Part shown: positions 1 to 36,426 of the stretch, piece after piece
Layout: each line of letters starts with the position of its first letter
Numbering within the stretch: the first letter of the stretch is position 1
Source of the DNA: Candidatus Rokuibacteriota bacterium
GTDB taxonomy: Bacteria; Methylomirabilota; Methylomirabilia; Rokubacteriales; CSP1-6
Reading direction: 5' to 3'
NCBI GenBank assembly: GCA_003220435.1
Contig: QHSL01000006.1
Span: 1 to 40,571 of the forward strand
Length of the DNA stretch: 40,571 nucleotides
The notes under the pieces: model-generated
Told to the model about the DNA's origin: nothing
Seen by the model: the letters and a program-made list of their open reading frames with translations, nothing else
The model's database searches: none
Program-made: the position numbers and the translations under genes

Positions 1-262
1 GCTTCTCGTCGCCGTGGAACTGGAGCGCGCGCAGGCCGCACGCCTCGGCCACCGCCTTGACGTGGCCCATCGGGTGGTCCCAGAAGATGCCGACCGGCGT
101 CACGAACGGGGGCAGCGCGCGGACAATTGGCGCGACCTTATCCGGCGTCACGAAGCGCGGCGTGTTCTCGACAAAGATGAACCCGAGCGCGTCCGCCCCG
201 GCGTCGACCGCGAGCATCGCGTCGTCGATGTTGGTGATGCCGCAGATCTTGACTCTTGTCAT
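1..262 (-). CDS. trpF: Phosphoribosylanthranilate isomerase, N-terminal part (cut by window edge)
   Basis: TrpF isomerises N-(5'-phosphoribosyl)anthranilate to CdRP in cytoplasmic tryptophan synthesis. Reading leftward from the ATG at 260-262 gives a protein starting MTRVKICGIT, the hallmark first beta strand of the TrpF TIM barrel with the catalytic Cys at residue 7. It continues with an AGADALGFIF strand and ends in LQFHGDE at the window edge. About 87 of the usual ~210 residues are present. It follows trpC, whose product uses the TrpF product, so the two are almost certainly one transcript. No good Shine-Dalgarno precedes the ATG; the leader is instead a very G-rich tandem repeat. The gene identity is secure; the rest lies outside the window. 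Confidence 0.93.
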   Translation of the reverse strand, partial: MTRVKICGITNIDDAMLAVDAGADALGFIFVENTPRFVTPDKVAPIVRALPPFVTPVGIFWDHPMGHVKAVAEACGLRALQFHGDEK

Positions 263-21671: not shown

Positions 21672-21703
21672 CGCACGACCACGGCGGAGAACGTCGCGCT
21701 CAT
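21668..21703 (-). other. 11-residue mini-ORF bridging flippase and methyltransferase
   Basis: The frame MSATFSAVVVR begins by overlapping the flippase stop (ATGA) and ends by overlapping the methyltransferase start (ATGA). It spans the 28-base intergenic gap exactly. No Shine-Dalgarno is obvious, so translation would depend on coupling. It may be fortuitous. Confidence 0.3.
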
Positions 21704-23154
21704 CCCTGGAGCACCGTCCGCCAGTCGGCGATGAACTCGACCCGCCAGGCCGCGCCTCCGACGAGGCCGGCGAGGACGACGTAGACCCCGGCCGACAGCG
21801 CGGCGCCCAGCACCAGCGATGGCAGATCGTGGATCCACACGGCGACGAGCGCGGCGAGCGTCGCGGCGCTCGCGAGGCTCGCGGTCAACGGCACGCGCAC
21901 GGCGGGCAGGATCCGGATCGGGACCAGGCGGCGCAGGCTCAGCGCCGTGTAGGAGACCGAGGCACAGGCGAGGGCGGCGCTCGCCACGGCGAAGCCGACG
22001 AACCCGAGCCACGGCACCAGGAGGAGGGTTAGGGCCCAGAGCAGAACGGCGCCGGCGAGGTTCAGGCGGAACACCAGGTCCGGGCGCCCCAGGCAGTAGA
22101 GGGCGTGGACGAGAATCGTCGAGGTGCCGCCGATGATCGCGGACAGGCAGAAGCACCGCACCGCCGGGACCGCCGGCGCCCAGACCTCGCCGAAGATCAG
22201 GCGGACGACGGGCTCGGCGGCGGCCAGCAGCAGCGCCGCCGCGGGGTACAGCACCGTGGTCACGCGATTCAGGGCGCGCTCGGCGGCGCCGGCGAATCGC
22301 CGGGCGTCCGTCTGGAGGCTCGACAGCGCCGGAAACAGCACGCGGCCCGCGATCGACACGACTTGAAGCGGCAGGAACGCCAGCATCGCCGCCCAGTTCA
22401 AGAGGCCGACGGCGGCGACACCGCTCGCCGCGGTGACGAAGAGCGGGACGACCGAATCGCCGGCGATGGTGATCACGATGCTGCCCTGGAACAGGATCCC
22501 GAACTTGAGCACCGGAGCGAGCTCGCGCCAGCGCAGTTTCAAATCAGGCCGCCACGAGGTCACGCTCCACACGATCACGACGTTGACCGCCCGCGCCGCG
22601 AGCGCCCCGGCCACGAAGCTCCACAGGCCGGCGCCGGCGAGCGCGGCGGCGACCGCAACGATGTTGAACGCCACCGTGTCGGCGCTCTCCGCGATCGTGA
22701 GCGGGAGATAGGCGAGCCTCCGCTCCAGCAGCACCGAAGCGGGCATCCGGAGCGCCGACAGGACCACCAGCAGCGCCAGCCAGCGCAGCGGCGCCGTCAC
22801 GTCCTCCGACACGCCCGGCCAGCGCGCGACGAGCGGCCCCGCCGCGGCGATCGCCGCGCCCAGGAGCAGCGCGAGCCCGAGCGTCGCCGTGAAGGCCGCG
22901 CCGAGTCCGCCCACCGCGTCGAGGTCACGCCGCTGGATCAGCGCCGCGCCGAGGCCCAGCTCGCTGAACCGGACGCCGAGCGTGATCACGAAGCTGAGGA
23001 TCGCGTAGAGCCCGAACACCTCGGGGGTGAGCAGGCGGGCCAGCGCGATCGATCCGGCGGCGGTGACCACGATGGCAATGGCCTTCTGGGCGCCGAGCAG
23101 CAGGAAGCTTCGGAGGGTGCGGCCTCTGAGCCCGGGAGCGCTCGCGGGGGTCAT
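21700..23154 (-). CDS. Polysaccharide flippase (Wzx/MOP superfamily)
   Basis: A 484-residue membrane protein with about 12 to 14 helices in the pattern of the MOP/polysaccharide-export family. It opens with RTLRSFLLLGAQKAIAIVVTA, then ARLLTPEVFGLYAIL, a loop typical of lipopolysaccharide flippases such as WzxC, then SELGLGAALIQR. It would move undecaprenyl-linked repeat units across the inner membrane. The start at 23152-23154 overlaps the KdsC-like stop as ATGA; the open frame further upstream is only the antisense side of that gene. It is the only flippase seen in the window. Confidence 0.92.
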   Translation of the reverse strand: MTPASAPGLRGRTLRSFLLLGAQKAIAIVVTAAGSIALARLLTPEVFGLYAILSFVITLGVRFSELGLGAALIQRRDLDAVGGLGAAFTATLGLALLLGAAIAAAGPLVARWPGVSEDVTAPLRWLALLVVLSALRMPASVLLERRLAYLPLTIAESADTVAFNIVAVAAALAGAGLWSFVAGALAARAVNVVIVWSVTSWRPDLKLRWRELAPVLKFGILFQGSIVITIAGDSVVPLFVTAASGVAAVGLLNWAAMLAFLPLQVVSIAGRVLFPALSSLQTDARRFAGAAERALNRVTTVLYPAAALLLAAAEPVVRLIFGEVWAPAVPAVRCFCLSAIIGGTSTILVHALYCLGRPDLVFRLNLAGAVLLWALTLLLVPWLGFVGFAVASAALACASVSYTALSLRRLVPIRILPAVRVPLTASLASAATLAALVAVWIHDLPSLVLGAALSAGVYVVLAGLVGGAAWRVEFIADWRTVLQG

Positions 23155-23699
23155 CGACCTCCGTGCTCGCGCACGTAGGCGCCCACGACGCGCCGCCACG
23201 AACCCTGCGCCCGCAGCAGCAGCTCGACGCACTCGCGGAGCGCTCCCTGCCCGCCCCGGGCGCGGGTGACGACGTGCGCGATCGCCTTCACCGGCCCCGC
23301 CGCGTCGGCCACGGCGATCGCGAGCCCCACCGTCTGCATCGCGGGAATGTCGAGAAGGTCGTCGCCGATGTAGGCGACGCCCTCGGCCGGCACGTCGAAC
23401 TCGGCGCACAGCGCCTCGATGACCTCTCCCTTGCGCCGCGCGCCGAGGACTACCGAGTCCACGCCCAGCTTGGCGCCGCGCGTCTTGGCGATCGGATTCG
23501 ACTCGCCCGTGACCATCGCGGTCCGGAGCCCGCCGCGCTTGGCCAGCGCGACCGCCACGCCGTCGTGCGTATGAAACGCCTTCAGCTCGTCGCCGCGCTC
23601 CGAGAGGATCATCCGGCCGTCCGTCAGCACACCGTCGACGTCCATCACGAGCAGCCGGACCTTCCGGGCTCGCGCGGCGGCCGCACGCGGCGACGTCAC
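23151..23699 (-). CDS. KdsC-like HAD phosphatase
   Basis: A compact HAD-family phosphatase of 182 residues without a cap domain, like KdsC, which releases phosphate from Kdo-8-phosphate. HAD motif I is VMDVDGVLTDG at 18-28 with nucleophile Asp20 and Asp22. FHTHDGVAVALAKRGG, then MVTGESNPIAKTRGAKLG (motif II) and YIGDDLLDIPAM (motif IV) follow. No kdsA, kdsB or kdsD is in the window, so the substrate may be Kdo-8-P or another nonulosonate or sugar phosphate. The GTG at 23697-23699 overlaps the ligase stop as GTGA. Confidence 0.87.
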   Translation of the reverse strand: MTSPRAAAARARKVRLLVMDVDGVLTDGRMILSERGDELKAFHTHDGVAVALAKRGGLRTAMVTGESNPIAKTRGAKLGVDSVVLGARRKGEVIEALCAEFDVPAEGVAYIGDDLLDIPAMQTVGLAIAVADAAGPVKAIAHVVTRARGGQGALRECVELLLRAQGSWRRVVGAYVREHGGR

Positions 23700-25009
23700 G
23701 CGTAGCGCCCGAACGCGTGGGCCGGCGCCGTGCGCGGCGCCGGGGCCTCCGCGGCGGCCAGGCTCGGCAACGCGACCACGATGGCGGCGAAGAACCAGAA
23801 GGGCTCCATGATGCGCACGATGATGAACGTGTTCGCGCCGAGCGCGTGGCCGAGCAGGCCGAAGGTCCCGGCCACGAAGCCGAGGGCCAGGCCACGCTCC
23901 TCCCCATCGCCGAGGGCGCGGAAGGACCCGACGCCGGCCTTCAGCAGCGCCCACACCAGGGCGAGGAACGCCGCGAGCCCCACGACGCCCGTCTCGACCA
24001 GCGTCCGCGCGAACTGCTGATCCATGAAGGCGAAGCCGGTCACGCCGTAGCCGAGGATCGGGCGCTTCATGAAGCCGTCGAAGGCCTGCTTCACGCTGAT
24101 GAGCCGCGCCGACGTCGACGGGTCGAGTCCGACCTTTCCGACGATCACCGTGGGCTGCCCGCGCTCGGGCTCGAACGTGTACCGGACCCGCTTCATCACC
24201 GTGTCCGGGAAGAGCACCATGAGCAGCGGCGACGTGACGAGAGCCAGGAGCAGGGCGCCGACCATCAGGCGGCGGCGGCTCGTCAGCGCGGTCAGGGCCA
24301 GGATCGCCGGAATCGCGCCGACGTAGGACGTACGCGAGAGCGTGAACATGAACGGAATCGACATGAGGCCCACGAGCCCCACGCAGATCGCGCGGGTGCG
24401 GAGGCGGGCCGTCTCGAGCGCGACGCCGGCCGCGACCGAGATCATCAGCAAGAGGTAGCCGCCGAACGTGTTGGGCTCGCCCTCCTTGCCCTCGAACGGC
24501 GCCGACACCCGCTGTCCGGCCGGGATCTGGGTCAGCCCGATCAGGCTGACGATGACCGCGGTCACGAACGCGGCGATGACGAAGCGCCATGCCTGCCGGC
24601 GATCGTTGATGTTGTTCACGACCATGTAGTAGACGACGAAGTACTCGACGTACTTGAGGACGTAGAACATCCCGCCGAGGCCTCTCACGGTGCCCGTCGC
24701 GTAACCGACCAGCGTCGCGATCGCCGTCACGGCGACGTAGGCGAGGATCGGCCGGTTGAGCGGCGTCTTGAGCGCCAGCCCCATCTCCTTGTTCACCGCG
24801 GTCTTGGCGAGCCAGCTGAAGGCGACGACCAGCAGCAGGATGTCCTCGCTCCGGATAACGATCCGGCGCCCCTCGGCGACGCCGCCACCGGAGCCGAGCT
24901 GGGGCGAGAGCAGCATGGAGAAGATGACGAGGTAGAGGCCGAACTCGGTCTTGACGAAGACGATGAGGAATGCGGCCAGGGCGGCGGCCAGGACGAACGC
25001 CCAGTCCAC
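23696..25009 (-). CDS. O-antigen ligase/polymerase (Wzy/WaaL-type) membrane protein
   Basis: A membrane protein of 437 residues with about 11 to 12 helices and a large periplasmic loop before the last group. Conserved parts are FTLSRTSYVGAIPA and, in the loop, FDGFMKRPILGYGVTGF, both typical of the Wzy_C/O-antigen ligase family. It may polymerise repeat units or transfer the polymer to an acceptor; the sequence cannot separate these. The GTG at 25007-25009 is the only plausible start. The sequence GTAGGGGCC just before it, overlapping the kinase stop, may serve as the ribosome site. The gap to the kinase gene is 5 bases. Confidence 0.87.
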   Translation of the reverse strand: MDWAFVLAAALAAFLIVFVKTEFGLYLVIFSMLLSPQLGSGGGVAEGRRIVIRSEDILLLVVAFSWLAKTAVNKEMGLALKTPLNRPILAYVAVTAIATLVGYATGTVRGLGGMFYVLKYVEYFVVYYMVVNNINDRRQAWRFVIAAFVTAVIVSLIGLTQIPAGQRVSAPFEGKEGEPNTFGGYLLLMISVAAGVALETARLRTRAICVGLVGLMSIPFMFTLSRTSYVGAIPAILALTALTSRRRLMVGALLLALVTSPLLMVLFPDTVMKRVRYTFEPERGQPTVIVGKVGLDPSTSARLISVKQAFDGFMKRPILGYGVTGFAFMDQQFARTLVETGVVGLAAFLALVWALLKAGVGSFRALGDGEERGLALGFVAGTFGLLGHALGANTFIIVRIMEPFWFFAAIVVALPSLAAAEAPAPRTAPAHAFGRYA

Positions 25010-25014
25010 GGCCC

Positions 25015-28000
25015 CTACTTCACGCGCACGACCTGGTTGCCCAGGCCGAGAAGCATCAGCTCCTGACCCTTCGCCTCCGCCTCTTGGAGCGTGGCAAAGT
25101 TCCCGTGGCGGATCACGAACGCCACCGCCTCGCCCGGCTGCGCCGCGACCCGCACCTGGTGCCCACTCGCCCTCAGCCGCTCCGCCAGCTGCACGGCGCC
25201 GCGTAGCGCCTGGGGCGGGCCCACCTGCACGCTCAGCGGCTCGCGCTCGCCGATCACGGTGGCGTCGCCCGCGCCTTGCTCGCGCAGCGACGCGACGAGC
25301 GCCTGGGCGTCGCGCGCGGTCGGGACCCGGTCGATCAGCACCGCGTACAGCGCGGCGCCCGTCGGCTGGCGGAAGCGCACCGTCTGGTAGCCAGCCTGGC
25401 TGAGCTGCCGCTCGACACGCTCGGCCTCGAGCGGAGTCATGAACGGCCCGAACTCGAGCGCGAAGCGCGCGGGCGCGGCGGCAACGGCCGCGGCTGGTCC
25501 GGTCGCGTCCGGCGCCGAACGCGCGCCCGCGGCCGGAGCGGCCGCGGCTGCGTGCAGCGCCTCCTCCACCATCGTCAGCGGGGGCGTCGTGGCGACCACC
25601 GACCGCTCCGCGGGCGGCGGAGCCGGCGTCGCGTTGACGGGCGCCGGGCCGAGCGAGCGCGGCGGTGGCGGCTCGGGCGACGGGGATCGCGGCGGCGGAA
25701 CGGAGCGCGGCGATCCCGGCTGCGCCGGCGGCGCCTCGAGCCGTTGACGGAGGAGCTCCTTGGGACGCAACCCAGTGGAGCCGAGCCACCCCATCCACCA
25801 CGCGCCGAGGCACGCGCCGAGCAGGCCGAGGGCGATCAGCGCGACGATCAGCTTCGTGGGCCGACGGGATCGGGGCGCGTGCAGCCCGGGCGCCTCGACG
25901 TCGGCGACCTCGAGGCCGTGCGTGAGCACGGCGGGCGCGGCGGTGGCGGCCGCGGTCGCGCCGGCGTCGGGCTCGCTCGGCGGCGCGTCCTCGCGGCCCC
26001 GTCCGCGGACCAGGCCACGCAGGCCGCGCAGGAACGTGCGCACGCGCTGCACGCGCTCCTTCTGGACGTCGACCACCGTCTCCTCGCCGTAGTAGTGCGT
26101 GTAGTAGTGGGTGTACGCGTAGCCCGCGATCTCGGTCTTGACGTCGTTCAGGACGACCCCCCAGACCTTGCCGCCGACGTTCTCGACGTGCACCTTCGCC
26201 CGCCTGAGGACCAGCCGTCCGACCTTTCCGGCCTGGTAGACGAGCACCACGCCGTCGACCTGCGAGCCCACGATCGCGGAGTCGGTCACCGGCAGGACCG
26301 GAGGCGTGTCGATCAGGACCACGTCGTACTCGTCGCGCACCTCGCGCAGGAACTCACCCATCGCCGGCGTGGACAGAAGCTCCGACGGGTTCGCCGGGAC
26401 CGGGCCCGCCTCGATGATGTGCAGGTTGTCGAGGCCGGGCGCGGCCATGATGTCTTCCATCTCGAACCGGCCCATGAGGATGTCGGCGACGGTCCGGATG
26501 CACTCCCGCCAGGGCGTGCTCCCGACGAGGATGTTGGAGAGCCCGGGCTCGCGCTCGATCCCGAAGAACCGGTGGATGGACGGGCGCCGCATGTTCGCGC
26601 CGATCAGCAGCGTCTTCTGTCCGCTCTGCGCCATCGTCAGCGCCAAATTCACGATGGTCGTCGTCTTGCCTTCCTGGAGCGTGGCGCTCGTCACGACCAG
26701 CAGCTTCCCGGAGCGCTCCAGGCGCGCGAATTGGATGTTGGTGCGCAGCGTCCGGTACGCCTCGGCGACCGGCGACTTGGGATCGAAATGGGTGATCAGC
26801 AGGGAATGGCTCAGCAAGGCCTCGGGATCCATCTGGGCGAGCGCCGGGCGCCGCTCCAGGACGCGCTGGACGGTCTCGCGCGAGTCGATGTGCGGGACCA
26901 CGCCCAGCACCGGGACCTCGAGGTACGCCTCGACGTCCTCGATGGTGCCGATCGAGGTGTCGAGCGTCTCGCGCACGAACGCGAACACCAGGCCGAGGAA
27001 CAACCCCAGCAGCCCGCCGACCATGACGGCGTGCGTCGTCTCGCCGCCGATCGGGGCCTCCGGCTCCGTGGCCGGCCGGACGATCGACACCTCCTCGATC
27101 TTCTCGGCCTCCTTGATCAGGGCCTCCTGGTGCTTCGTTCTCAGGGTCCCGAGCAGCTCATCGTTGGTCTTGGCCTCGCGCTGCAGCCGCTGGAGTGCCA
27201 GCTCGACGGTGGGCAGCTCCCGATTCTTCTGCTGGAGCTCGCCGACCTGCCGGTTGAGAAGCTCCTCGCGGTTCCGGAGCATCGCGATCTGCGCCGAGAC
27301 CTCCCGGCGCATCTCGAGGCGGACCTCGCGCATCCGGTCGTCGAGCGCCTGGAGGCGCGGATGCCGCTCGGTCACCTCGAGGGCCAGGCTGTTCCGCTCG
27401 AGCAGGAGCTCCGAGTAGGTGGCCTGCAGCTTCTGCATCGCCGGGTTGGAGGTCTCGATGAAGATCCGCTCGTTGGTGTTGGCCGGATCGATCCGCAGCA
27501 ACCGTTGCTGCATGAGCTCGAGCTCGATGCGCTGCTGGCGCGCCTTCTCGATGTCGCCCCGGACCTGGGTGAAGATCGAGAGCAGCACCGACGACTCGGC
27601 GCCCGGCGCGATGATGCGGTTCGCTTCCCGGAACGCCCACACGTCGCTCTCGGCGCGCTTCACGCGGCCCTCGACCTCGCGGAGCTGGTTCTCGATGAAC
27701 CGTCGCGCCTCGGTCACGCGCAGGTTCCGCACCGCCTTGTTGTGGTCGCGGTACGCCTCGGCGACGGCGTTGGCCAGATCGCGCACCTCGCGTGGATTCG
27801 TGGAGGTGGCGGTGATCTCTAGAATCGACGTGCTCGGGATCCGCGAGACCTTCAGCTTGTCGTTGACCGAGTCCATCGCCGCCCAGTAGCTCTTCGATTC
27901 CCGCAGCGCCTCGCCCGCAGCCGTCTGCGGCAGGCGGCCCAGCCGCTTGGCGGCCTCCTCGAGGATCGGGTAGCTCTTGATCAGGGTGACCTGCGTCTCG

Positions 28001-28221
28001 ATCGAGTCGGCGCTCGAGTACGAGAGCACCTCCACCAGGAGCCCCGACATCTGGGTGGACTGCTCGAACTTGACCGCGGCGACCGCCTGATAGAGGGGGA
28101 CCTTCTGCTTGGCGAACCAGAAGCTGAACAACATCACCAGCAGCGTCGAGACGATGATGATCAGGCGCCGCCGGCGCACGATCAGCCAGTAGTCGCGCAG
28201 GTTCATCTCGTACTGCGCCAC
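25015..28221 (-). CDS. Wzz/BY-kinase co-polymerase with added membrane helix and SPOR-like tail
   Basis: A very large protein of 1068 residues; Wzc-type kinases are usually 700-760. Order: Wzz domain with TM1 (about 18-36), long coiled coil (170-380), TM2 (about 396-416), then the kinase. Walker A is TSATLQEGKTTT at 511-522 and Walker B is VVLIDTPP at 634-641. Walker A' reads TLLIGANMRRP at 537-547, so the usual first Asp is Gly and the second is Asn. The tyrosine cluster is internal, AGYAYTHYYTHYYG at 699-712. A basic linker, a third helix (790-812), a Pro-rich stretch and two SPOR-like repeats (about 940-1010 and 1015-1068) follow. It would control chain length and export. The GTG at 28219-28221 shares one base with the upstream TAG. 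Confidence 0.92.
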   Translation of the reverse strand: MAQYEMNLRDYWLIVRRRRLIIIVSTLLVMLFSFWFAKQKVPLYQAVAAVKFEQSTQMSGLLVEVLSYSSADSIETQVTLIKSYPILEEAAKRLGRLPQTAAGEALRESKSYWAAMDSVNDKLKVSRIPSTSILEITATSTNPREVRDLANAVAEAYRDHNKAVRNLRVTEARRFIENQLREVEGRVKRAESDVWAFREANRIIAPGAESSVLLSIFTQVRGDIEKARQQRIELELMQQRLLRIDPANTNERIFIETSNPAMQKLQATYSELLLERNSLALEVTERHPRLQALDDRMREVRLEMRREVSAQIAMLRNREELLNRQVGELQQKNRELPTVELALQRLQREAKTNDELLGTLRTKHQEALIKEAEKIEEVSIVRPATEPEAPIGGETTHAVMVGGLLGLFLGLVFAFVRETLDTSIGTIEDVEAYLEVPVLGVVPHIDSRETVQRVLERRPALAQMDPEALLSHSLLITHFDPKSPVAEAYRTLRTNIQFARLERSGKLLVVTSATLQEGKTTTIVNLALTMAQSGQKTLLIGANMRRPSIHRFFGIEREPGLSNILVGSTPWRECIRTVADILMGRFEMEDIMAAPGLDNLHIIEAGPVPANPSELLSTPAMGEFLREVRDEYDVVLIDTPPVLPVTDSAIVGSQVDGVVLVYQAGKVGRLVLRRAKVHVENVGGKVWGVVLNDVKTEIAGYAYTHYYTHYYGEETVVDVQKERVQRVRTFLRGLRGLVRGRGREDAPPSEPDAGATAAATAAPAVLTHGLEVADVEAPGLHAPRSRRPTKLIVALIALGLLGACLGAWWMGWLGSTGLRPKELLRQRLEAPPAQPGSPRSVPPPRSPSPEPPPPRSLGPAPVNATPAPPPAERSVVATTPPLTMVEEALHAAAAAPAAGARSAPDATGPAAAVAAAPARFALEFGPFMTPLEAERVERQLSQAGYQTVRFRQPTGAALYAVLIDRVPTARDAQALVASLREQGAGDATVIGEREPLSVQVGPPQALRGAVQLAERLRASGHQVRVAAQPGEAVAFVIRHGNFATLQEAEAKGQELMLLGLGNQVVRVK

Positions 28222-28784
28222 TAGCGGAACACCTCACGGAACCGCAGACGTTCGAGGCTCTCGACGAGCGCACCCGCGCGCTGCGCCTCGTCGGTCGGGG
28301 CCGCCTCGGCCGCAGCGGGCGGGCGCGTCCCCGGGGCGACGACGACACGATCGAAGGCGACGACCAGACCCTCCGCGCCCTCGAACAGGTAGCACTCGAC
28401 GGCGTCGGGCGCCGCCGCGCCCAGCGCGCGGAGCAGGCGTAGCGCGCGGTCGCCGAACCGCGCCGCGGCGATCAGGGCGCGCGGCGCGCCGTGCGGGTCG
28501 ACGCCGGCGCCCGGGAGCATGCGCTCGAGCAGCGCGGTATGCTCGCGCCACCACGCGACGCCCTCCAGCGCGCGCAGCACCGTCTCGGGGCTGGCGACGA
28601 CCTCGCTCACGACGACGACGAGCCGGCGGCTCGCGTCGACGCACAGCAAGTCGACGCTGACTTCCCCCGCCGCGGCCGCCCGCTGGAGCAGACGCAGGCC
28701 CGGCTCGAGCTCGGACGCGCATTGCGCCAGCACCCTGGCGAGCTCGCCCGCGTCGGAGACCGCGCGACGCTTGAGCGCCTTCAC
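28221..28784 (-). CDS. Unknown 187-residue protein, possibly a degenerate nuclease-like fold
   Basis: I do not recognise a named family. The protein is soluble, with VSVDLLCVDASRRLVVVVSE at about 42-61, then a helix (ETVLRALEGVAWWREH), then RALIAAARFGDRALRLLRAL and VECYLFEGAEGLVVAF. This strand-strand-helix order resembles PD-(D/E)xK nuclease-like domains, in which an Asp is followed by a Glu-x-Lys on the next strand. Asp45 and Asp50 are present, but the Lys is missing, so an active nuclease is unlikely. It starts with GTG at 28782-28784 overlapping the HD-domain stop (GTGA) and shares a base with the kinase start, so it is tightly coupled to the export module. An adaptor or regulator role is a guess. 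Confidence 0.75.
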   Translation of the reverse strand: MKALKRRAVSDAGELARVLAQCASELEPGLRLLQRAAAAGEVSVDLLCVDASRRLVVVVSEVVASPETVLRALEGVAWWREHTALLERMLPGAGVDPHGAPRALIAAARFGDRALRLLRALGAAAPDAVECYLFEGAEGLVVAFDRVVVAPGTRPPAAAEAAPTDEAQRAGALVESLERLRFREVFR

Positions 28785-29908
28785 CGCCCGGCTTCCGCGA
28801 CGGCACCCGTGATGTAGAGGAACGGCGCCTCGGACAGATCCGTGCTCTTCGGCGACGCGAGCCGTTGGCCCTTGCCGTCGGCGACGATCTCGACGCGGGG
28901 ACGGAGTGGGTAGTTGCGATTCACCGCGGTCACGCGCCCGACCTCGCCGGTATTCAGGCGCACCAGCGTGCCGGGCGGGAACACCGAGATCTGCGTGAGG
29001 AGGGCTTTGATCAGCGGCGACGCGAACGCTTCGTGCTTGGAGCGGACGATCTCGCGAATCGCCTCGTGCGGCCGCAGGCGCGCTCGCGGCGCCGGGGGCG
29101 CCGTGAGGCCCGTGTACGTGTCGAGCAGGCTGAGGATCTTGGCGTCGGGATGCATCGCGGTGCCGTGGAGGCCCTGCGGGAACCCCTGCCCTTGCTCGCG
29201 CTCGTGATGCTGCAGCACCGCCTCGACGAATCCCTCTCGCGGCGGCCCCCAACGGCGGATCCACTCGACCGAGAGACGCGGGTGCGACCGGTAGAGCGCC
29301 TGCTCGTCGGCCGACAGCGCGTCGAGCCGGCGCATCAGCCCCTCGGGCAGCTGCCAAAGCCCGACGTCGATCAGGCAACCGGTCATGCCCACCTGGACCT
29401 GCCGTGATCGCTCGTAGCCGACGCAGGCGCCGGTGGCGATCGAGAGCACGGCAACACGCGCTTGGTGGAAGGCCAGGTAGTCGACGCCGGCGGGCGCGGC
29501 CGCGTTGTTGGCCACCCAGAAGAGGTCGCCGCCCGCCGCCAGCGACGTCACACAACGATCGGCGAGCTGCTCGAGCTCCGACCACGGGAACGTGCCGCCC
29601 GTGCGCATGAGCTCGCGGACGCGCGCGAGGAACAGCTGAAGCTCGGCGAACAGCGGCTCGGCGCCCTCGACCGGAGCCTCGATGTACGCCGGCTCGGGCT
29701 CGAGGACGTCGACGCGCGCCGTGGGCTCGACGACGCGCGGCGGCTCGACCGGGGGCGGCGGTTCCACCGCGCGTGGCGGCGTGGGTCGACGCGCGGTCGG
29801 CGGCGGCGGTGGTGGAGCCGCTGGCGCCTCGGCCGGGGCGGCCTTCGCGGCGGTGTCCGCAGGCTTCTCCGGGGTGACCCCGCGCACGAGGTCGCTCATG
29901 CGGACCAT
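28781..29908 (-). CDS. Degenerate HD-GYP domain protein
   Basis: A 375-residue protein. Residues 20-80 form a Pro/Ala-rich, probably disordered linker after a short N-terminus. From about 105 to 300 it aligns with the HD-GYP fold of cyclic-di-GMP phosphodiesterases: FHQARVA with His148, GCLIDVG at 177-183, SHPRLS with His209, LQHHEREQGQGFPQGL at 232-247, and AKILSLLDTYTGL at 256-268. The HD doublet reads Ile180-Asp181, so the metal-binding His is lost, and GYP is GFP. The remaining part (305-375) ends with the APFLYITG segment common in such proteins. It may bind c-di-GMP or partner proteins without catalysis. The ATG at 29906-29908 overlaps the ATPase stop (TGATG). Confidence 0.82.
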   Translation of the reverse strand: MVRMSDLVRGVTPEKPADTAAKAAPAEAPAAPPPPPPTARRPTPPRAVEPPPPVEPPRVVEPTARVDVLEPEPAYIEAPVEGAEPLFAELQLFLARVRELMRTGGTFPWSELEQLADRCVTSLAAGGDLFWVANNAAAPAGVDYLAFHQARVAVLSIATGACVGYERSRQVQVGMTGCLIDVGLWQLPEGLMRRLDALSADEQALYRSHPRLSVEWIRRWGPPREGFVEAVLQHHEREQGQGFPQGLHGTAMHPDAKILSLLDTYTGLTAPPAPRARLRPHEAIREIVRSKHEAFASPLIKALLTQISVFPPGTLVRLNTGEVGRVTAVNRNYPLRPRVEIVADGKGQRLASPKSTDLSEAPFLYITGAVAEAGR

Positions 29909-30714
29909 CAGGAGACTCCGACCATGTCCTTGATCACCTCGGCGATGATCTTCTCGCCGACTTCCTTCACTCGCTTCGAGTAGCCGACCAGCAGGGCGAC
30001 GTCGCAGAGGTTGTTGATCTCGCGCGGCGTGCCGCGCGTGAAGTCGAAGATGAGCTTGATCGCCTCTTCGGTGAAGAGCTGGTGGGGCTGGCCGGCCATC
30101 CGCAGACGGTGGCCGATGTAGTTCGCGGTGTGCGAGTAGTCGAGCGTGTTCAGGTGGTACCGGAGCGTGATGCGCTGGTCCAGGTGCTTGAGCCGCCGCA
30201 CCTTCACGGCGAGCTCCGGGGATCCGATGAGCAGGAGCGTCACCAGGAACCGCTCGTCGGTCTGGAAGTTCAGGAGCAGCCGCAGCTCCTCGAACACCGA
30301 GTCGTCGTCGATCAGCTGCGCCTCGTCGACGATGACGACCGTGTCCCGGCCCGCCTGGAAATTCCGGAAGAACAGATCGTTCAGCAGGTGCATGAGCTCG
30401 GGCTTGCGCTTCTCCTCGGTCTCGACGCCGAGCTGGTAGAGCATCTCGCGCAGGAAGTCGATCGCGGTCCAGCTCGGGTTGGTGAGCAGGCCGATCTCGT
30501 AGCGCTCGGCCTCGAGGCGCTGGATGAGCGCACGTGACAGCGTGGTCTTGCCGCACCCGTATTCGCCCGTCAGCATCCCGCAGCCCTTGCGATGGCGCAC
30601 CGTGTACACGAGCCGGACGAGCGCCTCCTCGTGCTCGGGCGAGAGGTAGAAGAACTTCGGGTTCGGCGAGTTGTCGAAGGGCGGTTCGGTGAGCTCCCAG
30701 TAGGATTCGTACAT
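29908..30714 (-). CDS. ExeA/GspA-like AAA ATPase of exopolysaccharide locus
   Basis: A cytoplasmic ATPase of 268 residues. It starts MYESYWELTEPPFDNSPNPKF-like, the typical opening of ExeA-type and XrtA-associated ATPases. Walker A is GEYGCGKTT at 50-58, Walker B is VVIVDEAQ at 126-133, and sensor/arginine regions follow (LLIGSPEL, DQRITLRYHL, TRGTPREINN). It ends after the AAA lid; no peptidoglycan-binding domain is fused. Such ATPases sit between the Wzz-kinase and the exporter in many polysaccharide loci. The spacing to the exporter stop is 3 bases. No exosortase gene is present in this window. Confidence 0.9.
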   Translation of the reverse strand: MYESYWELTEPPFDNSPNPKFFYLSPEHEEALVRLVYTVRHRKGCGMLTGEYGCGKTTLSRALIQRLEAERYEIGLLTNPSWTAIDFLREMLYQLGVETEEKRKPELMHLLNDLFFRNFQAGRDTVVIVDEAQLIDDDSVFEELRLLLNFQTDERFLVTLLLIGSPELAVKVRRLKHLDQRITLRYHLNTLDYSHTANYIGHRLRMAGQPHQLFTEEAIKLIFDFTRGTPREINNLCDVALLVGYSKRVKEVGEKIIAEVIKDMVGVS

Positions 30715-30717
30715 CGG

Positions 30718-32262
30718 TTACTTGCCGCTGGTGGGACCGTTGAGGATGAAATAGATACCGGTGTACGCAGTGACCAGGCTCGCGATCGCCGACAGGATCG
30801 TGATGTAGTCCTGCCACCACTTGACCGCGACTTCGGGCACGGTCACGACGGCGCCGGGCTCGAGTGGCGGCGCGTCGGCCATCGCGTACGTTCGTCCGTT
30901 CCGGAAGGTCACCGAGGTGTTGGTCAAGCGCGCCCGGTTCGTGGGCCCGCCAGCGAGCGCGACGTACTCCCGCGGCGTCAGGTCGGTGCGGAAGTCGTGG
31001 CTGCCGGGCGCCTTGACCTCACCGACGACGTACACGCGGTCCTCGACCACCGGCAGGGTCACCACGTCGCCGTTCTGGAGGAGGATGTTCTGCGTCTCGT
31101 CCTTCTCCACAAGCAGCCGATAGAGGTCGATCGGGATCCGCTGCCGCGGCCCGGTCGGCCCTGTGCGCTCGACCAGCGCCAGCCGCAAGTCGGCCTGGGC
31201 CGCCGCGCCGCCCGCCCTGTTCACGACGTCGCGAACGCGATCGCCCTGGGCCAGCTCGAGACGCTGGACGATCGCGGCCTTGCCGGCGACCATCGTCTTG
31301 CTGCTCTCGGCTGTTCCGCTGAACGCGCCGCGCACCTCGACCAGGTCCTGGAGGACCGCGATCGGCGGCACGAAGACCGCATCGCCCGGCTGGAGCACCA
31401 CGTCGGCCGGCGGCTTGAGGGCCGTGCGCAGGTCGAGCGTGAGCGTCTCCTTCCGGTCGTCGGCCCCGACGCGGGTCAGCCGCGCGTCGCCGGCCGCGCC
31501 CGCCTGGCTCACGCCCCCGACCAGCTCCAGCAGCGCGCGGAGCGAGGCCGATGGCCCGATCTCGTACTCTCCCGGCCGACGCACGGCGCCGCTCAGCGTG
31601 ACGGAGCCGGCGCGCAGCGGCACGTGGATCTTGAGGCCTTCCTCCACGAAGGGGTTCTGATTCAGATCACCGCGAAGCTCGAACGCGAGCAGATCGACCT
31701 CGCTCTCGACTCCCTTGCGCGTGACCACGACCCGGCGAACGCTTCCACGCGGCGTGACCCCTCCGGCTTCGAGGACGACGTCGTGGAGGCGTCGAGTCGC
31801 CGTGACCTGGAGCGAGCCCGGACGCTCGACCTCGCCGGAAATGACGATCTCGAAGGTCCGCGGGGCCAGAACCGTGACCGTCGCCTCCGCAAACCTGAAC
31901 ACCGCTCGCGCGCGGTCAGCGATGCGACGGTGGGCCTCGAGCAGTGTCAACCCGCCCACCGGGATGTTGCCGAGCGGCGAGACGTTGACCTTGCCCTCGA
32001 AATCGACGACCGGTTGCTGGCGGATCACATCGAGGCGGCCTGAAATCTGCACGTCGAGGACGTCGCCGGCGGCCAGTCGATACTCGGGCCCTGGCACGGT
32101 ACCCCGACCGATGGCTTGCGGCTGCGCTCGGAGGGGATTTGCGGCGGACGGAGGCGGCTGCTGGGGACCAGGGGACGGCTGCTGCGCGACCCCGAGGGTG
32201 GGTGTCATCATGGACACCGCGAGTATGAAGCTGATGCCTCTGCGCAGAACAATGTGCTCCAT
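30718..32262 (-). CDS. SLBB-domain polysaccharide export outer-membrane protein
   Basis: A 514-residue protein of the Wza/polysaccharide-export family. The N-terminus is a signal peptide (MEHIVLRRGISFILAVSMM...GVAQQ). A Pro/Gln-rich spacer precedes the PES domain (about 58-135, YRLAAGDVLDVQISG). Three SLBB domains follow near 136-195, 219-280 and 409-460, each with VxGEV/VxGAV then RPG or APG. A hydrophobic C-terminal helix (about 486-508) matches the Wza membrane helix. It would form the outer-membrane channel for the polymer. I chose ATG 32260-32262; a TTG at 32290-32292 is in frame but falls at the predicted transcription start. It is the first gene of the operon. Confidence 0.9.
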   Translation of the reverse strand: MEHIVLRRGISFILAVSMMTPTLGVAQQPSPGPQQPPPSAANPLRAQPQAIGRGTVPGPEYRLAAGDVLDVQISGRLDVIRQQPVVDFEGKVNVSPLGNIPVGGLTLLEAHRRIADRARAVFRFAEATVTVLAPRTFEIVISGEVERPGSLQVTATRRLHDVVLEAGGVTPRGSVRRVVVTRKGVESEVDLLAFELRGDLNQNPFVEEGLKIHVPLRAGSVTLSGAVRRPGEYEIGPSASLRALLELVGGVSQAGAAGDARLTRVGADDRKETLTLDLRTALKPPADVVLQPGDAVFVPPIAVLQDLVEVRGAFSGTAESSKTMVAGKAAIVQRLELAQGDRVRDVVNRAGGAAAQADLRLALVERTGPTGPRQRIPIDLYRLLVEKDETQNILLQNGDVVTLPVVEDRVYVVGEVKAPGSHDFRTDLTPREYVALAGGPTNRARLTNTSVTFRNGRTYAMADAPPLEPGAVVTVPEVAVKWWQDYITILSAIASLVTAYTGIYFILNGPTSGK

Positions 32263-32296
32263 GGAATGGTCGGCAATTCCCCTAGAAATCAAGTTT

Positions 32297-33820: not shown

Positions 33821-34648
33821 CTACGCCACGAAGGGGGGAATCGGCGGTATCTCGACCTGCTGCATCTTGACGTCGCGCACGCCCGGCACCGAGCGCGCGA
33901 CCTCGACCGCGCGCTCGAGGGCCGCGGTTCCCTCGAGCGTGACGACGCCGCCGTGGGCCTCGACGGTGATCCGGTAACGCCGCGTCTCCGGATGGGTCGC
34001 CAGCGCCACCTGCACGCGCGACGCGAGCGCCCGCGACGAGACCATCTGGCGGCCGGCGTCAGTCGTGGCCATCTCCGGCCGACGCACGAGGCCCTCGATC
34101 ACCGCGACCACGGCGTCGTGCTTCAACTTCTCCGTGTTGACGAGCAGCTCGTAGAGGTTCGGATCCGCGATGTCGACTTCGTACAGGTACCGCATCCGCC
34201 CAGACTTCTCGAGGTCGTCCCGACGGACGAGCTCGGCGGCCGCGCGTTGGTTCGGCGTCTCACCCGTCATCTCGGCGGTGCGCTTGATCCACTGCTTCAC
34301 CCGGTGCTCGAACGGCGCGATGATCCGGATGCGGACCGCGTGCGGAACACCGCGGAGAAGCCACTGGCCGCCGCCGCGCATGAGCACGGCGTTGTCGAGC
34401 TCGGCGAACTCGAGGAGTGTCGTCTGCAGCACCGTGATATGGTGCCGGGTCTCGGTGTCGAAGCGCTCGAACAGGGTCGGCTTGGACTCGTCCAGGTGTG
34501 ACAGCTTCTCCTCGGCGAGGCCGTAGCGGCGCGCCGCGTCAAGCAGGAGCTCCTGGTTCACGTAGCGATAGCCGAGCCGCTGCGCCAGCGCCATACCGAT
34601 CTCCGGGCCACCCGCCCCCATCTGATGCGAGATGACAATGATCGCCAT
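33821..34648 (-). CDS. Cytidylate-kinase-like domain fused to a BON domain
   Basis: A 275-residue two-domain protein. Residues 1-195 fit the cytidylate kinase-like family: ISHQMGAGGPEIGMALAQRLGY at the N-terminus is the P-loop region, which lacks the usual GKS/T as is normal for this family, then VNQELLLDAARRYGL, VLMRGGGQWLL and VRIRIIAPFEHR. Residues about 203-267 are a BON domain (VQVALATHPETRRYRITVEA, GGVVTLEGTA, VPGVRDVK), usually a membrane or small-ligand binding module in envelope proteins. No signal peptide is seen, so it is cytoplasmic. GGTGA before the ATG at 34646-34648 is a fair ribosome site. The substrate is unknown. Confidence 0.85.
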   Translation of the reverse strand: MAIIVISHQMGAGGPEIGMALAQRLGYRYVNQELLLDAARRYGLAEEKLSHLDESKPTLFERFDTETRHHITVLQTTLLEFAELDNAVLMRGGGQWLLRGVPHAVRIRIIAPFEHRVKQWIKRTAEMTGETPNQRAAAELVRRDDLEKSGRMRYLYEVDIADPNLYELLVNTEKLKHDAVVAVIEGLVRRPEMATTDAGRQMVSSRALASRVQVALATHPETRRYRITVEAHGGVVTLEGTAALERAVEVARSVPGVRDVKMQQVEIPPIPPFVA

Positions 34649-34922: not shown

Positions 34923-35618
34923 TCAGTACGCGAGGCGTCCTGCGCGCCGGACCGGCTCCGAGACGCGCGCGGGCGGATACCGATCGAAGCTCGGCACGAA
35001 CGAGTACGCGGGCCAGGGACCGGTCGGAACGACCGCGACGCCCGTCGCCCGCGACGCGACCGGCGCGATGCGCGCCAGGAAGTCATCGACCTCGGACCGC
35101 GGAACGAGAAACGCGACGGAGCCGGCCACGTTCGATCCGCTGCCGGGCGAACGGTATCGCCAGCGCTCGATTCCGGACTGCGTCACGAGACTCTCGGCCA
35201 ACTCACGGAGCTGGACGACGCCGGGCGCGCCGTCGGCGCACTCACGGCAGGTGCGCTCGATCGAATGCCCGCAATGCAGGCGAAGAAGCTTCACACTCAT
35301 CTCCACGCACCCCCGTAGCTGGGCGAGTGTCGTCCGCACGAGCGGCGCGTGCGCGGCGAGCCAGGCGTCGAGGTCCGACGCGGCCACGAGGGTGCCGAAC
35401 CTGAACGGCACTATTCCGTCGGCCTCGAGCGCCGACGCCACGACGTCGTGATGCAGGGCGAGCGTTCGGGCGTTGGCTTCGGGTCGGCGCTCGACGGGGC
35501 TCACGACCGCTACGAGATCGTCCAGGCGTCGAAGCGCGACGGGGCCGCCGACGCTCGCGCTCGGCGATTGCCACGTCGACGGGAGCCGGTCGGCGATCGC
35601 GTAGAGGTACTGGTACAT
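34923..35618 (-). CDS. GvpL/GvpF-family gas vesicle protein
   Basis: A 231-residue protein of the GvpL/GvpF family, minor structural or assembly proteins of gas vesicles. It opens MYQYLYAIADRLP, followed by VALRRLDDLVAVVSPVE, HHDVVASALEADGIVPFRFG (the family's characteristic HexxV...PFRFG region), CVEMSVKLLRLHCG and, near the C-terminus, PTGPWPAYSFVPSF, matching the GPWPPYSFV hallmark. No gvpA, gvpN or other gvp gene is present in the window, so it is an orphan here. The ATG at 35616-35618 is preceded by GAGGACC as ribosome site. Function outside gas vesicles is unknown. Confidence 0.87.
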   Translation of the reverse strand: MYQYLYAIADRLPSTWQSPSASVGGPVALRRLDDLVAVVSPVERRPEANARTLALHHDVVASALEADGIVPFRFGTLVAASDLDAWLAAHAPLVRTTLAQLRGCVEMSVKLLRLHCGHSIERTCRECADGAPGVVQLRELAESLVTQSGIERWRYRSPGSGSNVAGSVAFLVPRSEVDDFLARIAPVASRATGVAVVPTGPWPAYSFVPSFDRYPPARVSEPVRRAGRLAY

Positions 35619-35682
35619 ACGGTCCTCGCGCCCCGGGTGGGCTTCGCACGTTCGGCGGGAACTGCCGTTCGTTTCGAGAGGG

Positions 35683-35688
35683 TATAAT
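35683..35688 (+). promoter_or_regulatory. Possible -10 box for the secreted unknown protein
   Basis: A perfect TATAAT, rare in this GC-rich DNA, lies 9 bases before the TTG at 35698. No good -35 box is seen. The same bases lie between GAGAGGG and an out-of-frame ATG at 35687, so they might instead be a ribosome-site spacer. Confidence 0.4.
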
Positions 35689-35697
35689 GCCTCGGTC

Positions 35698-36426
35698 TTG
35701 TTGTCCAGGCATCGCCTCGGATCCACGTGGGCCGTGGCCCTCGTCGGTGTCGTATTGCTGGTCTCGAACGCTCCGGCGGCCAGGCCCTCGCCCACGCTTC
35801 CCGCGCAGATCCCCACCGCCGAGCGCGCCAGGCTCCAGGAGGTCGCCGACGCTGCATCGGTCAGCGCGCGCGCGGCCGGCGAGCCGTTCCTCGCGCGGCC
35901 CGAGGTCTTCGAGTTCCTGCTGGACCATCCCGAGTTCGCGACGCACGTAACCCGGGCGCTGAGGCTCGCCCGCTATCGGATCTGGCGGACCCCCGAGGGG
36001 CTGTGGCTCGACGACGGGTGGGGAGCGGTCGGCCAGTTCTCGGTCGTGTACTCGGCGGGCGGCACGCGGGTGATGTACGCGCGCGGCCACTATCAGCCGG
36101 GCTTCCTTCCGAACATCCACGGGCAGGCGGTCGTCGTCATCGAATACGACGCTCAGCCGTCGGCCGATCACAAGAGCCTGATCTCGACCGCCGTCACTGG
36201 CTTCGTGAAGCTCGATAGCCACTTCCTCGCCGTCGCGGGAAGGCTGGCGAGCGCGGTCGCCACCGCCAAGGCAGAGAAGGAAGCCCAGCGGCTCGTCAAG
36301 GTATTCGCGCGCGCCAGTCGGGCGATCGACGACAACCCGGCGCACGTCCACGAGAAGGTGCGGCAGCGCCAGGACGTCCCGTCGGGCGATCTCGAAGAGT
36401 TCCGGCGCCTGCTACATCTTCCCTAG
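35698..36426 (+). CDS. Secreted protein of unknown function
   Basis: A 242-residue protein that I cannot assign to a family. The N-terminus (RHRLGSTWAVALVGVVLLVSNAPAA) is a clear signal peptide, cut near residue 28. The mature part has a repeated hydrophobic pattern with PEVFEFLLDHPEFATHV, then a basic loop, then a beta-rich centre (FSVVYSAGGTRVMYARGHYQ and GQAVVVIEYDA) and a helical end. It is likely periplasmic. The TTG start is chosen for the charged leader; a second TTG (35701) and a GTG at 35734 are alternatives. The last 15 bases overlap the end of the TPR gene on the opposite strand. Confidence 0.7.
   Translation: MLSRHRLGSTWAVALVGVVLLVSNAPAARPSPTLPAQIPTAERARLQEVADAASVSARAAGEPFLARPEVFEFLLDHPEFATHVTRALRLARYRIWRTPEGLWLDDGWGAVGQFSVVYSAGGTRVMYARGHYQPGFLPNIHGQAVVVIEYDAQPSADHKSLISTAVTGFVKLDSHFLAVAGRLASAVATAKAEKEAQRLVKVFARASRAIDDNPAHVHEKVRQRQDVPSGDLEEFRRLLHLP

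Follow-up and report, generated by a model that had tools for sequence, protein, structure and literature searches.

What becomes of a Wzc-type polysaccharide co-polymerase when its kinase domain loses the acids of the Walker A' motif and its chain runs on past the tyrosine cluster towards a pair of SPOR repeats? The question is raised by the open reading frame at 25015-28221 of a 40,571-nt stretch (the window) of contig QHSL01000006.1 from Candidatus Rokuibacteriota; the source metagenome-assembled genome (MAG) is 5.4 Mb in size, and all coordinates given here are positions in the window. The Rokubacteria are soil and groundwater bacteria. In the current model Wzc-type machines, which have to cross the peptidoglycan, operate through cycles of tyrosine phosphorylation. 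The reading frame encodes a Wzc-type co-polymerase (PCP-2a, where PCP stands for polysaccharide co-polymerase) of a Wzx/Wzy exopolysaccharide locus. Our reading, which we hold with a probability of about 0.55, is that this is a wall-associated PCP-2a whose kinase domain has become a constrained, nucleotide-binding and probably non-phosphorylating oligomerisation module.

The protein has the composition of a PCP-2a, namely Wzz and GNVR domains with two flanking transmembrane (TM) helices, a covalently attached bacterial tyrosine kinase (BY-kinase) domain, and Wza, Wzy and Wzx partners in the neighborhood. In these respects, and in its tyrosine cluster, it resembles Wzc and Etk of E. coli and VpsO of V. 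cholerae, from which it differs in having GxN rather than DxD in Walker A' and a third TM helix and tandem SPOR repeats beyond the tyrosine cluster. Conservation was assessed in a clade of 39 distinct sequences from one Rokubacteria family, with 30 other BY-kinases as the outgroup set. The features of the gene are the following.

25015-28221, (-) strand: whole gene, 1068 residues from a GTG start; PCP-2a/Wzc-like co-polymerase whose BY-kinase domain is altered and is followed by a third membrane helix and a tail of two SPOR repeats
27943-28209, (-) strand: Wzz domain, residues 5-93, including TM1 (about 20-38); Pfam PF02706, 32.4 bits, above cut-off, and hydropathy
26968-27195, (-) strand: GNVR domain, residues 343-418, including TM2 (398-416); Pfam PF13807, 39.6 bits, above cut-off, and hydropathy
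26074-26799, (-) strand: BY-kinase domain, residues 475-716; TIGR01007, 184 bits against a cut-off of 108, and AlphaFold2 (AF2) model
26659-26685, (-) strand: Walker A, residues 513-521 (ATLQEGKTT), Lys519 kept in 39/39 of the clade
26581-26610, (-) strand: altered Walker A', residues 538-547 (LLIGANMRRP), G541 and N543 replacing D/E and D
26299-26325, (-) strand: Walker B, residues 633-641 (DVVLIDTPP), Asp638 kept in 39/39 of the clade
26089-26121, (-) strand: internal tyrosine cluster, residues 701-711, six Tyr (YAYTHYYTHYYGE, first residue 701), conserved in the clade
25855-26073, (-) strand: basic cytoplasmic linker, residues 717-789, net positive ahead of TM3 by sequence
25786-25854, (-) strand: third hydrophobic helix, residues 790-812 (about 791-809 in the hydropathy scan); hydropathy 2.25
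25477-25785, (-) strand: Pro/Ala-rich linker, residues 813-915, by composition and length a weakly constrained spacer
25261-25473, (-) strand: SPOR repeat 1 (SPOR1; 25258-25473 in the genome search), residues 917-987, with E923 where a glycan-contact Gln is usual; profile 26.7 bits singly
25024-25239, (-) strand: SPOR repeat 2 (SPOR2; 25024-25236 in the genome search), residues 995-1066, Q/R999 and invariant R1038; profile 22.9 bits singly

The kinase domain is assigned to the polysaccharide biosynthesis tyrosine autokinase subfamily (NCBIfam TIGR01007), and Pfam AAA_31, a P-loop family, matches residues 518-651. An initial annotation of this gene had described an internal tyrosine cluster followed by a basic linker, a helix at 790-812, a Pro-rich stretch and two repeats, and this layout was recovered in full: 357 residues are still to come after the six tyrosines of the cluster, which is therefore not the end of the chain, unlike in a standard PCP-2a.

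The alteration of Walker A' goes further than that annotation had proposed. It had correctly noticed the loss of the first Asp (G541) and was mistaken in confining the loss to this residue, as the second acid is also gone (N543). Residue 543 is Asn in 39/39 sequences of the clade and Asp in 30/30 outside it, and at 541 the clade has Gly in 38 members and Asn in one, as against Asp in 16 and Glu in 14 of the outgroup sequences. The Walker A Lys, the Walker B Asp and the EX2RX2R motif do not vary within the clade, and nearly all members retain the six tyrosines. The nearest relatives of the co-polymerase come from Candidatus Rokubacteria MAGs, with up to 89% identity over the full length. When 95 genomes of the phylum were searched with the kinase domain, all matches at 70% identity or more fell in a single family (38 of its 57 genomes), and the next matches, beyond that family, were at 49%. 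In a maximum-likelihood tree calculated with the Walker A' columns removed, the clade forms a single group with full support. The third helix and the SPOR1 motif are present in 35/35 full-length members; the reading frames of four sequences that lack a tail (L024, L029, L030 and L033) are cut by contig ends and are thus not exceptions. An assembly error as the source of the fusion is ruled out, since the same fusion and motif recur in many independent MAGs, and for the same reason chance does not explain them.

Selection was gauged from the ratio of nonsynonymous to synonymous substitution rates (dN/dS) between the window protein and three relatives. The kinase domain has the lowest values of the protein (0.04-0.11) and is thus the most constrained part of the co-polymerase, followed by the SPOR pair (0.15-0.24), the periplasmic part (0.21-0.33) and the linker spanning residues 717-912 (0.5-0.7). 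These values, together with invariance of 55% of the kinase-domain columns in the clade, rule out a decaying pseudogene. The pattern indicates instead that the kinase fold was retained while two usually essential acids were surrendered.

The AF2 model of the kinase domain matches structures of Wzc (3la6, 3cio, 6u1q) and CapB (4jmp, 3bfv), with a Foldseek probability of 1.00 to both proteins. What the two Walker A' Asp residues do was taken from general knowledge and from PMC12004946 and PMC7485978. In BY-kinases the Walker A' motif serves to recognise Tyr and to start phosphorylation (PMC12004946); when Wzc is unphosphorylated, its Y715 is hydrogen-bonded to D564 of the adjacent subunit (PMC7485978). 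From the position of K540 and the motif spacing, D564 is taken as the second Walker A' Asp, which corresponds to the position of N543 here. With the Walker A Lys and Walker B Asp in place nucleotide binding is expected, with both acids of the DxD motif gone little or no autophosphorylation is expected, and with Asn at the D564 position docking of tyrosine could outlast catalysis. The domain is thus expected to bind nucleotide and to dock the tyrosine tail with little or no phosphotransfer, so that the weakened activity suggested by the initial annotation appears, if anything, understated.

The known BY pseudokinases EcpK and HfsB have lost every Walker motif as well as the Tyr tail, and PMC12004946 cites a list of fused PCP-2 pseudokinases from Cuthbertson et al. 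The co-polymerase shares with these proteins the BY-kinase fold, a loss of catalytic residues and the setting of a Wzx/Wzy pathway. The characterised pseudokinases, however, are stand-alone proteins, whereas the co-polymerase still has Walker A, Walker B and its six tyrosines, lacks no more than the Walker A' acids and has acquired a SPOR tail. The catalytic loss is therefore partial, and the co-polymerase is most likely a partial pseudokinase, milder than and different in form from EcpK and HfsB.

The tail consists of two SPOR repeats, as the initial annotation had suspected from their appearance; both a profile score above cut-off (Pfam SPOR, PF05036, 38.3 bits against 21, in two stretches) and the predicted fold bear this out. 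An AF2 model of residues 904-1068, built from 17 sequences, has a predicted local distance difference test score (pLDDT) of 91 and the β-α-β-β-α-β order of a SPOR domain. In Foldseek it matched CwlC (probability 1.00), DedD (0.96) and FtsN (0.91) at their SPOR domains, and VIA-align gave a Z of 9.6 with CwlC. A profile search of the PDB with the tail alignment returned FtsN at 2e-5 and CwlC at 6e-5; designed pentatricopeptide proteins at the top of that search were read as composition artefacts. A phmmer search with SPOR1 alone gave nothing relevant, and three tails of one tail alignment had no Pfam SPOR match. Instead of β2-β3 hairpins the model shows continuous strands of 20 residues, and the alignment of several structural matches is broken up (13..165 for a single SPOR domain), so that, judged from the model, the two repeats may be intertwined.

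Placement of the repeats in the periplasm, also proposed initially, is well supported by topological reasoning, as the hydrophobic third helix follows a cytosolic kinase and the positive charge lies inside. Among the 35 full-length relatives this helix has a hydropathy of 1.78-3.03, and the linker between it and SPOR1 measures 71-239 residues in relatives. A single-pass helix, a Pro-rich periplasmic linker and a C-terminal SPOR domain are also the plan of the envelope proteins FtsN, DamX, DedD and RlpA; what differs here is that two SPOR repeats are carried by a polysaccharide co-polymerase and that SPOR1 is without the conserved Gln.

SPOR tails also occur on kinases with an intact DxD (L042) or ExD (L038, L039, L089 and others) motif, both among Desulfobacterota and in further families of Methylomirabilota. 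A second sample was taken of Desulfobacterota-type kinases, among which PCP-2 BY-kinases that have a third helix are common; a tail of at least 115 residues was present in 19 of the 23 proteins with complete ends, and these 19 tails (L109-L129, Desulfobacterota-type loci) contained SPOR in seven cases and a bacterial SH3 domain (SH3b) in three. The tailed kinases L038, L042, L089, L099 and L109-L129 have the same order of PCP part, kinase, tyrosine cluster, third TM helix and SPOR or SH3b tail, but their DxD/ExD is intact and their kinase domains are 42-49% identical to that of the co-polymerase. Because SPOR tails exist in these DxD/ExD relatives, the comparison indicates that the tail is older than the loss of the Asp residues, which it places later, as a single event in the Rokubacteria line. 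The co-occurrence of tail and altered Walker A' raised in the initial annotation therefore holds in one direction, as all GxN proteins are tailed, and fails in the other, most tailed proteins not being GxN. A coupling of the two traits is thus not supported, and their origin in one event is ruled out by the tree together with the SPOR-tailed DxD/ExD kinases. The tail seems to be an older, exchangeable envelope module, with SPOR and SH3b apparently swapped between lineages.

A large set of BY-kinases (L038, L039, L089-L099, L112-L116 and L121-L122) has Glu at the first Walker A' acid. The ExD motif is possibly a step towards GxN or else a separate active variant.

The machine that we envisage would be built as follows. 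After the tyrosine cluster the chain would cross the inner membrane for a third time and, by way of the long, flexible Pro/Ala spacer, reach two periplasmic SPOR domains; in an octamer the export channel would be surrounded by eight tethers bearing as many as sixteen SPOR folds in all, and these tethers could hold the export machine at the peptidoglycan layer or allow it to feel that layer. The kinase domain, in which the tyrosines and the EX2RX2R oligomerisation motif are retained, would still fold and bind nucleotide. Without the two Walker A' acids its autophosphorylation would be poor or absent, as Asn543 could accept the incoming tyrosine of a neighbouring subunit but could not serve as a base, and the domain would act as a nucleotide-binding, tail-docking assembly module. 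A bolder version, which we put forward only tentatively, is that these proteins form a phosphorylation-independent, wall-tethered class of Wzc, cycling by nucleotide-dependent docking of unphosphorylated tyrosines and by contact with peptidoglycan or a wall synthase through the tandem SPOR domains.

The conservation of the kinase domain could also be understood in other ways. The remainder of the active site, the EX2RX2R motif and the tyrosine cluster are under strong purifying selection and sister clades already accept Glu at the first Walker A' position, both of which would suit a kinase that is still active with GxN, other residues or the backbone supplying the Mg and base functions; a Wzc-like autophosphorylation cycle would then continue and only the tail would be new. 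We consider this unlikely, given that a second Asp present throughout the outgroup set is found in 0/39 of the clade, that the motif concerned is the one described as starting phosphorylation (PMC12004946), and that the clade alignment contains no new invariant acid in place of the lost ones (D693 is new in the clade but lies directly ahead of the tyrosine cluster). No CpsB/CapC phosphatase was found in the genome and its single match to a low-molecular-weight phosphatase is on another contig, which fits a system that is not run by a Wzb-like cycle. The genome does encode a second PCP-2a (L140, G000:C54, on contig 54), tail-less and with a DAD Walker A' and a tyrosine cluster, which is a natural control for the tailed GxN co-polymerase. 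Were the tyrosines of a dead kinase phosphorylated in trans by a canonical BY-kinase such as this one within the cell, export would be slaved to another pathway and the conserved tyrosines would be explained. This strikes us as decidedly improbable, since the L140 kinase belongs to its own polysaccharide locus and the work on EcpK argues that pathway pseudokinases act without active BY-kinases (PMC12004946).

The partner of the tail is less certain than its fold, and the anchoring to peptidoglycan or the division site that the initial annotation suggested is a possibility. Known SPOR domains make contact with glycan through a Gln (RlpA Q270, FtsN Q251; PMC6895207). Reading the equivalent positions by alignment rather than from a complex, SPOR1 has Glu923 in 36/36 clade members and Ala or Gly for the Arg of the RVxVG strand, yet several sister-clade tails retain the Gln and WxRVxxG; in SPOR2 position 999 is Arg in 25 and Gln in 11 of 36. 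Binding of septal denuded glycan can thus not be assumed, and the tail might have ceased to bind glycan and become a protein-protein module, with the Wza partner or a wall synthase as conceivable targets. This is a real possibility that we nevertheless lean against, as SPOR2 retains the invariant Arg1038 and a positive residue or Gln at 999, and related tails carry another type of envelope domain, SH3b. Contact of the tail with the wall remains plausible, and classical binding of denuded glycan uncertain. Besides the two substitutions in SPOR1, several points count against our reading of a wall-associated, probably non-phosphorylating co-polymerase: a Wzb-type phosphatase may be encoded far from its kinase, six conserved tyrosines are unusual for a pseudokinase, the third helix was called from hydropathy rather than by a dedicated topology predictor, and all of the sequence evidence is drawn from MAGs.

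The neighboring genes of the locus are as follows.

21700-23175, (-) strand: Wzx-like flippase; Polysacc_synt_3
23696-25021, (-) strand: O-antigen ligase/Wzy-like membrane protein, next gene to the co-polymerase; PF04932, adjacency conserved
28221-28784, (-) strand: small protein of 187 residues directly upstream of the co-polymerase; no Pfam family
28781-29905, (-) strand: HD_5 protein by Pfam, in which the HD-GYP-like motifs are degenerate and the end resembles DUF2196 (below cut-off); conserved in the operon
29908-30714, (-) strand: AAA ATPase of 268 residues, TIGR03015-like (XrtA/PEP-CTERM-associated); 229 bits, below the cut-off of 324.5; a constant member of the operon
30718-32292, (-) strand: Wza/OPX-like outer-membrane export protein; Poly_export and SLBB, conserved neighbor

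The order in Rokubacteria is conserved as a divergent DegP gene followed by Wza, AAA ATPase, HD, co-polymerase and Wzy-like genes; the small protein lies between the HD gene and the co-polymerase in the window, and the order in relatives was compared for the other genes. The HD_5 protein may bind a nucleotide signal. ATPases of the TIGR03015 type are normally tied to XrtA/PEP-CTERM loci, and in none of the sister loci that were read does one separate the Wza gene from the kinase gene. Elsewhere in the window are a fusion of cytidylate-kinase-like and BON domains (33821-34648, (-) strand) and, away from the polysaccharide genes, a gas vesicle domain of the GvpL/GvpF type (34923-35816, (-) strand; Pfam, 3.3e-32).

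The co-polymerase is thus of a known kind, PCP-2a, and what is probably new is the combination of a wall-directed tandem SPOR tail with a constrained, probably non-phosphorylating kinase. A large, conserved natural family that has a fused module of wall-binding type and has lost the Walker A' acids alone offers a clean test of the separate contributions of ATP binding, tyrosine docking and phosphotransfer. The occurrence of a third helix and of SPOR or SH3b tails on the PCP-2 kinases of several phyla suggests a general link to the wall in polysaccharide export, of which no earlier report was found in the open literature searched. If the phosphorylation-independent, wall-tethered version of our reading is true, polysaccharide export in these bacteria would depend on what state the cell wall is in.

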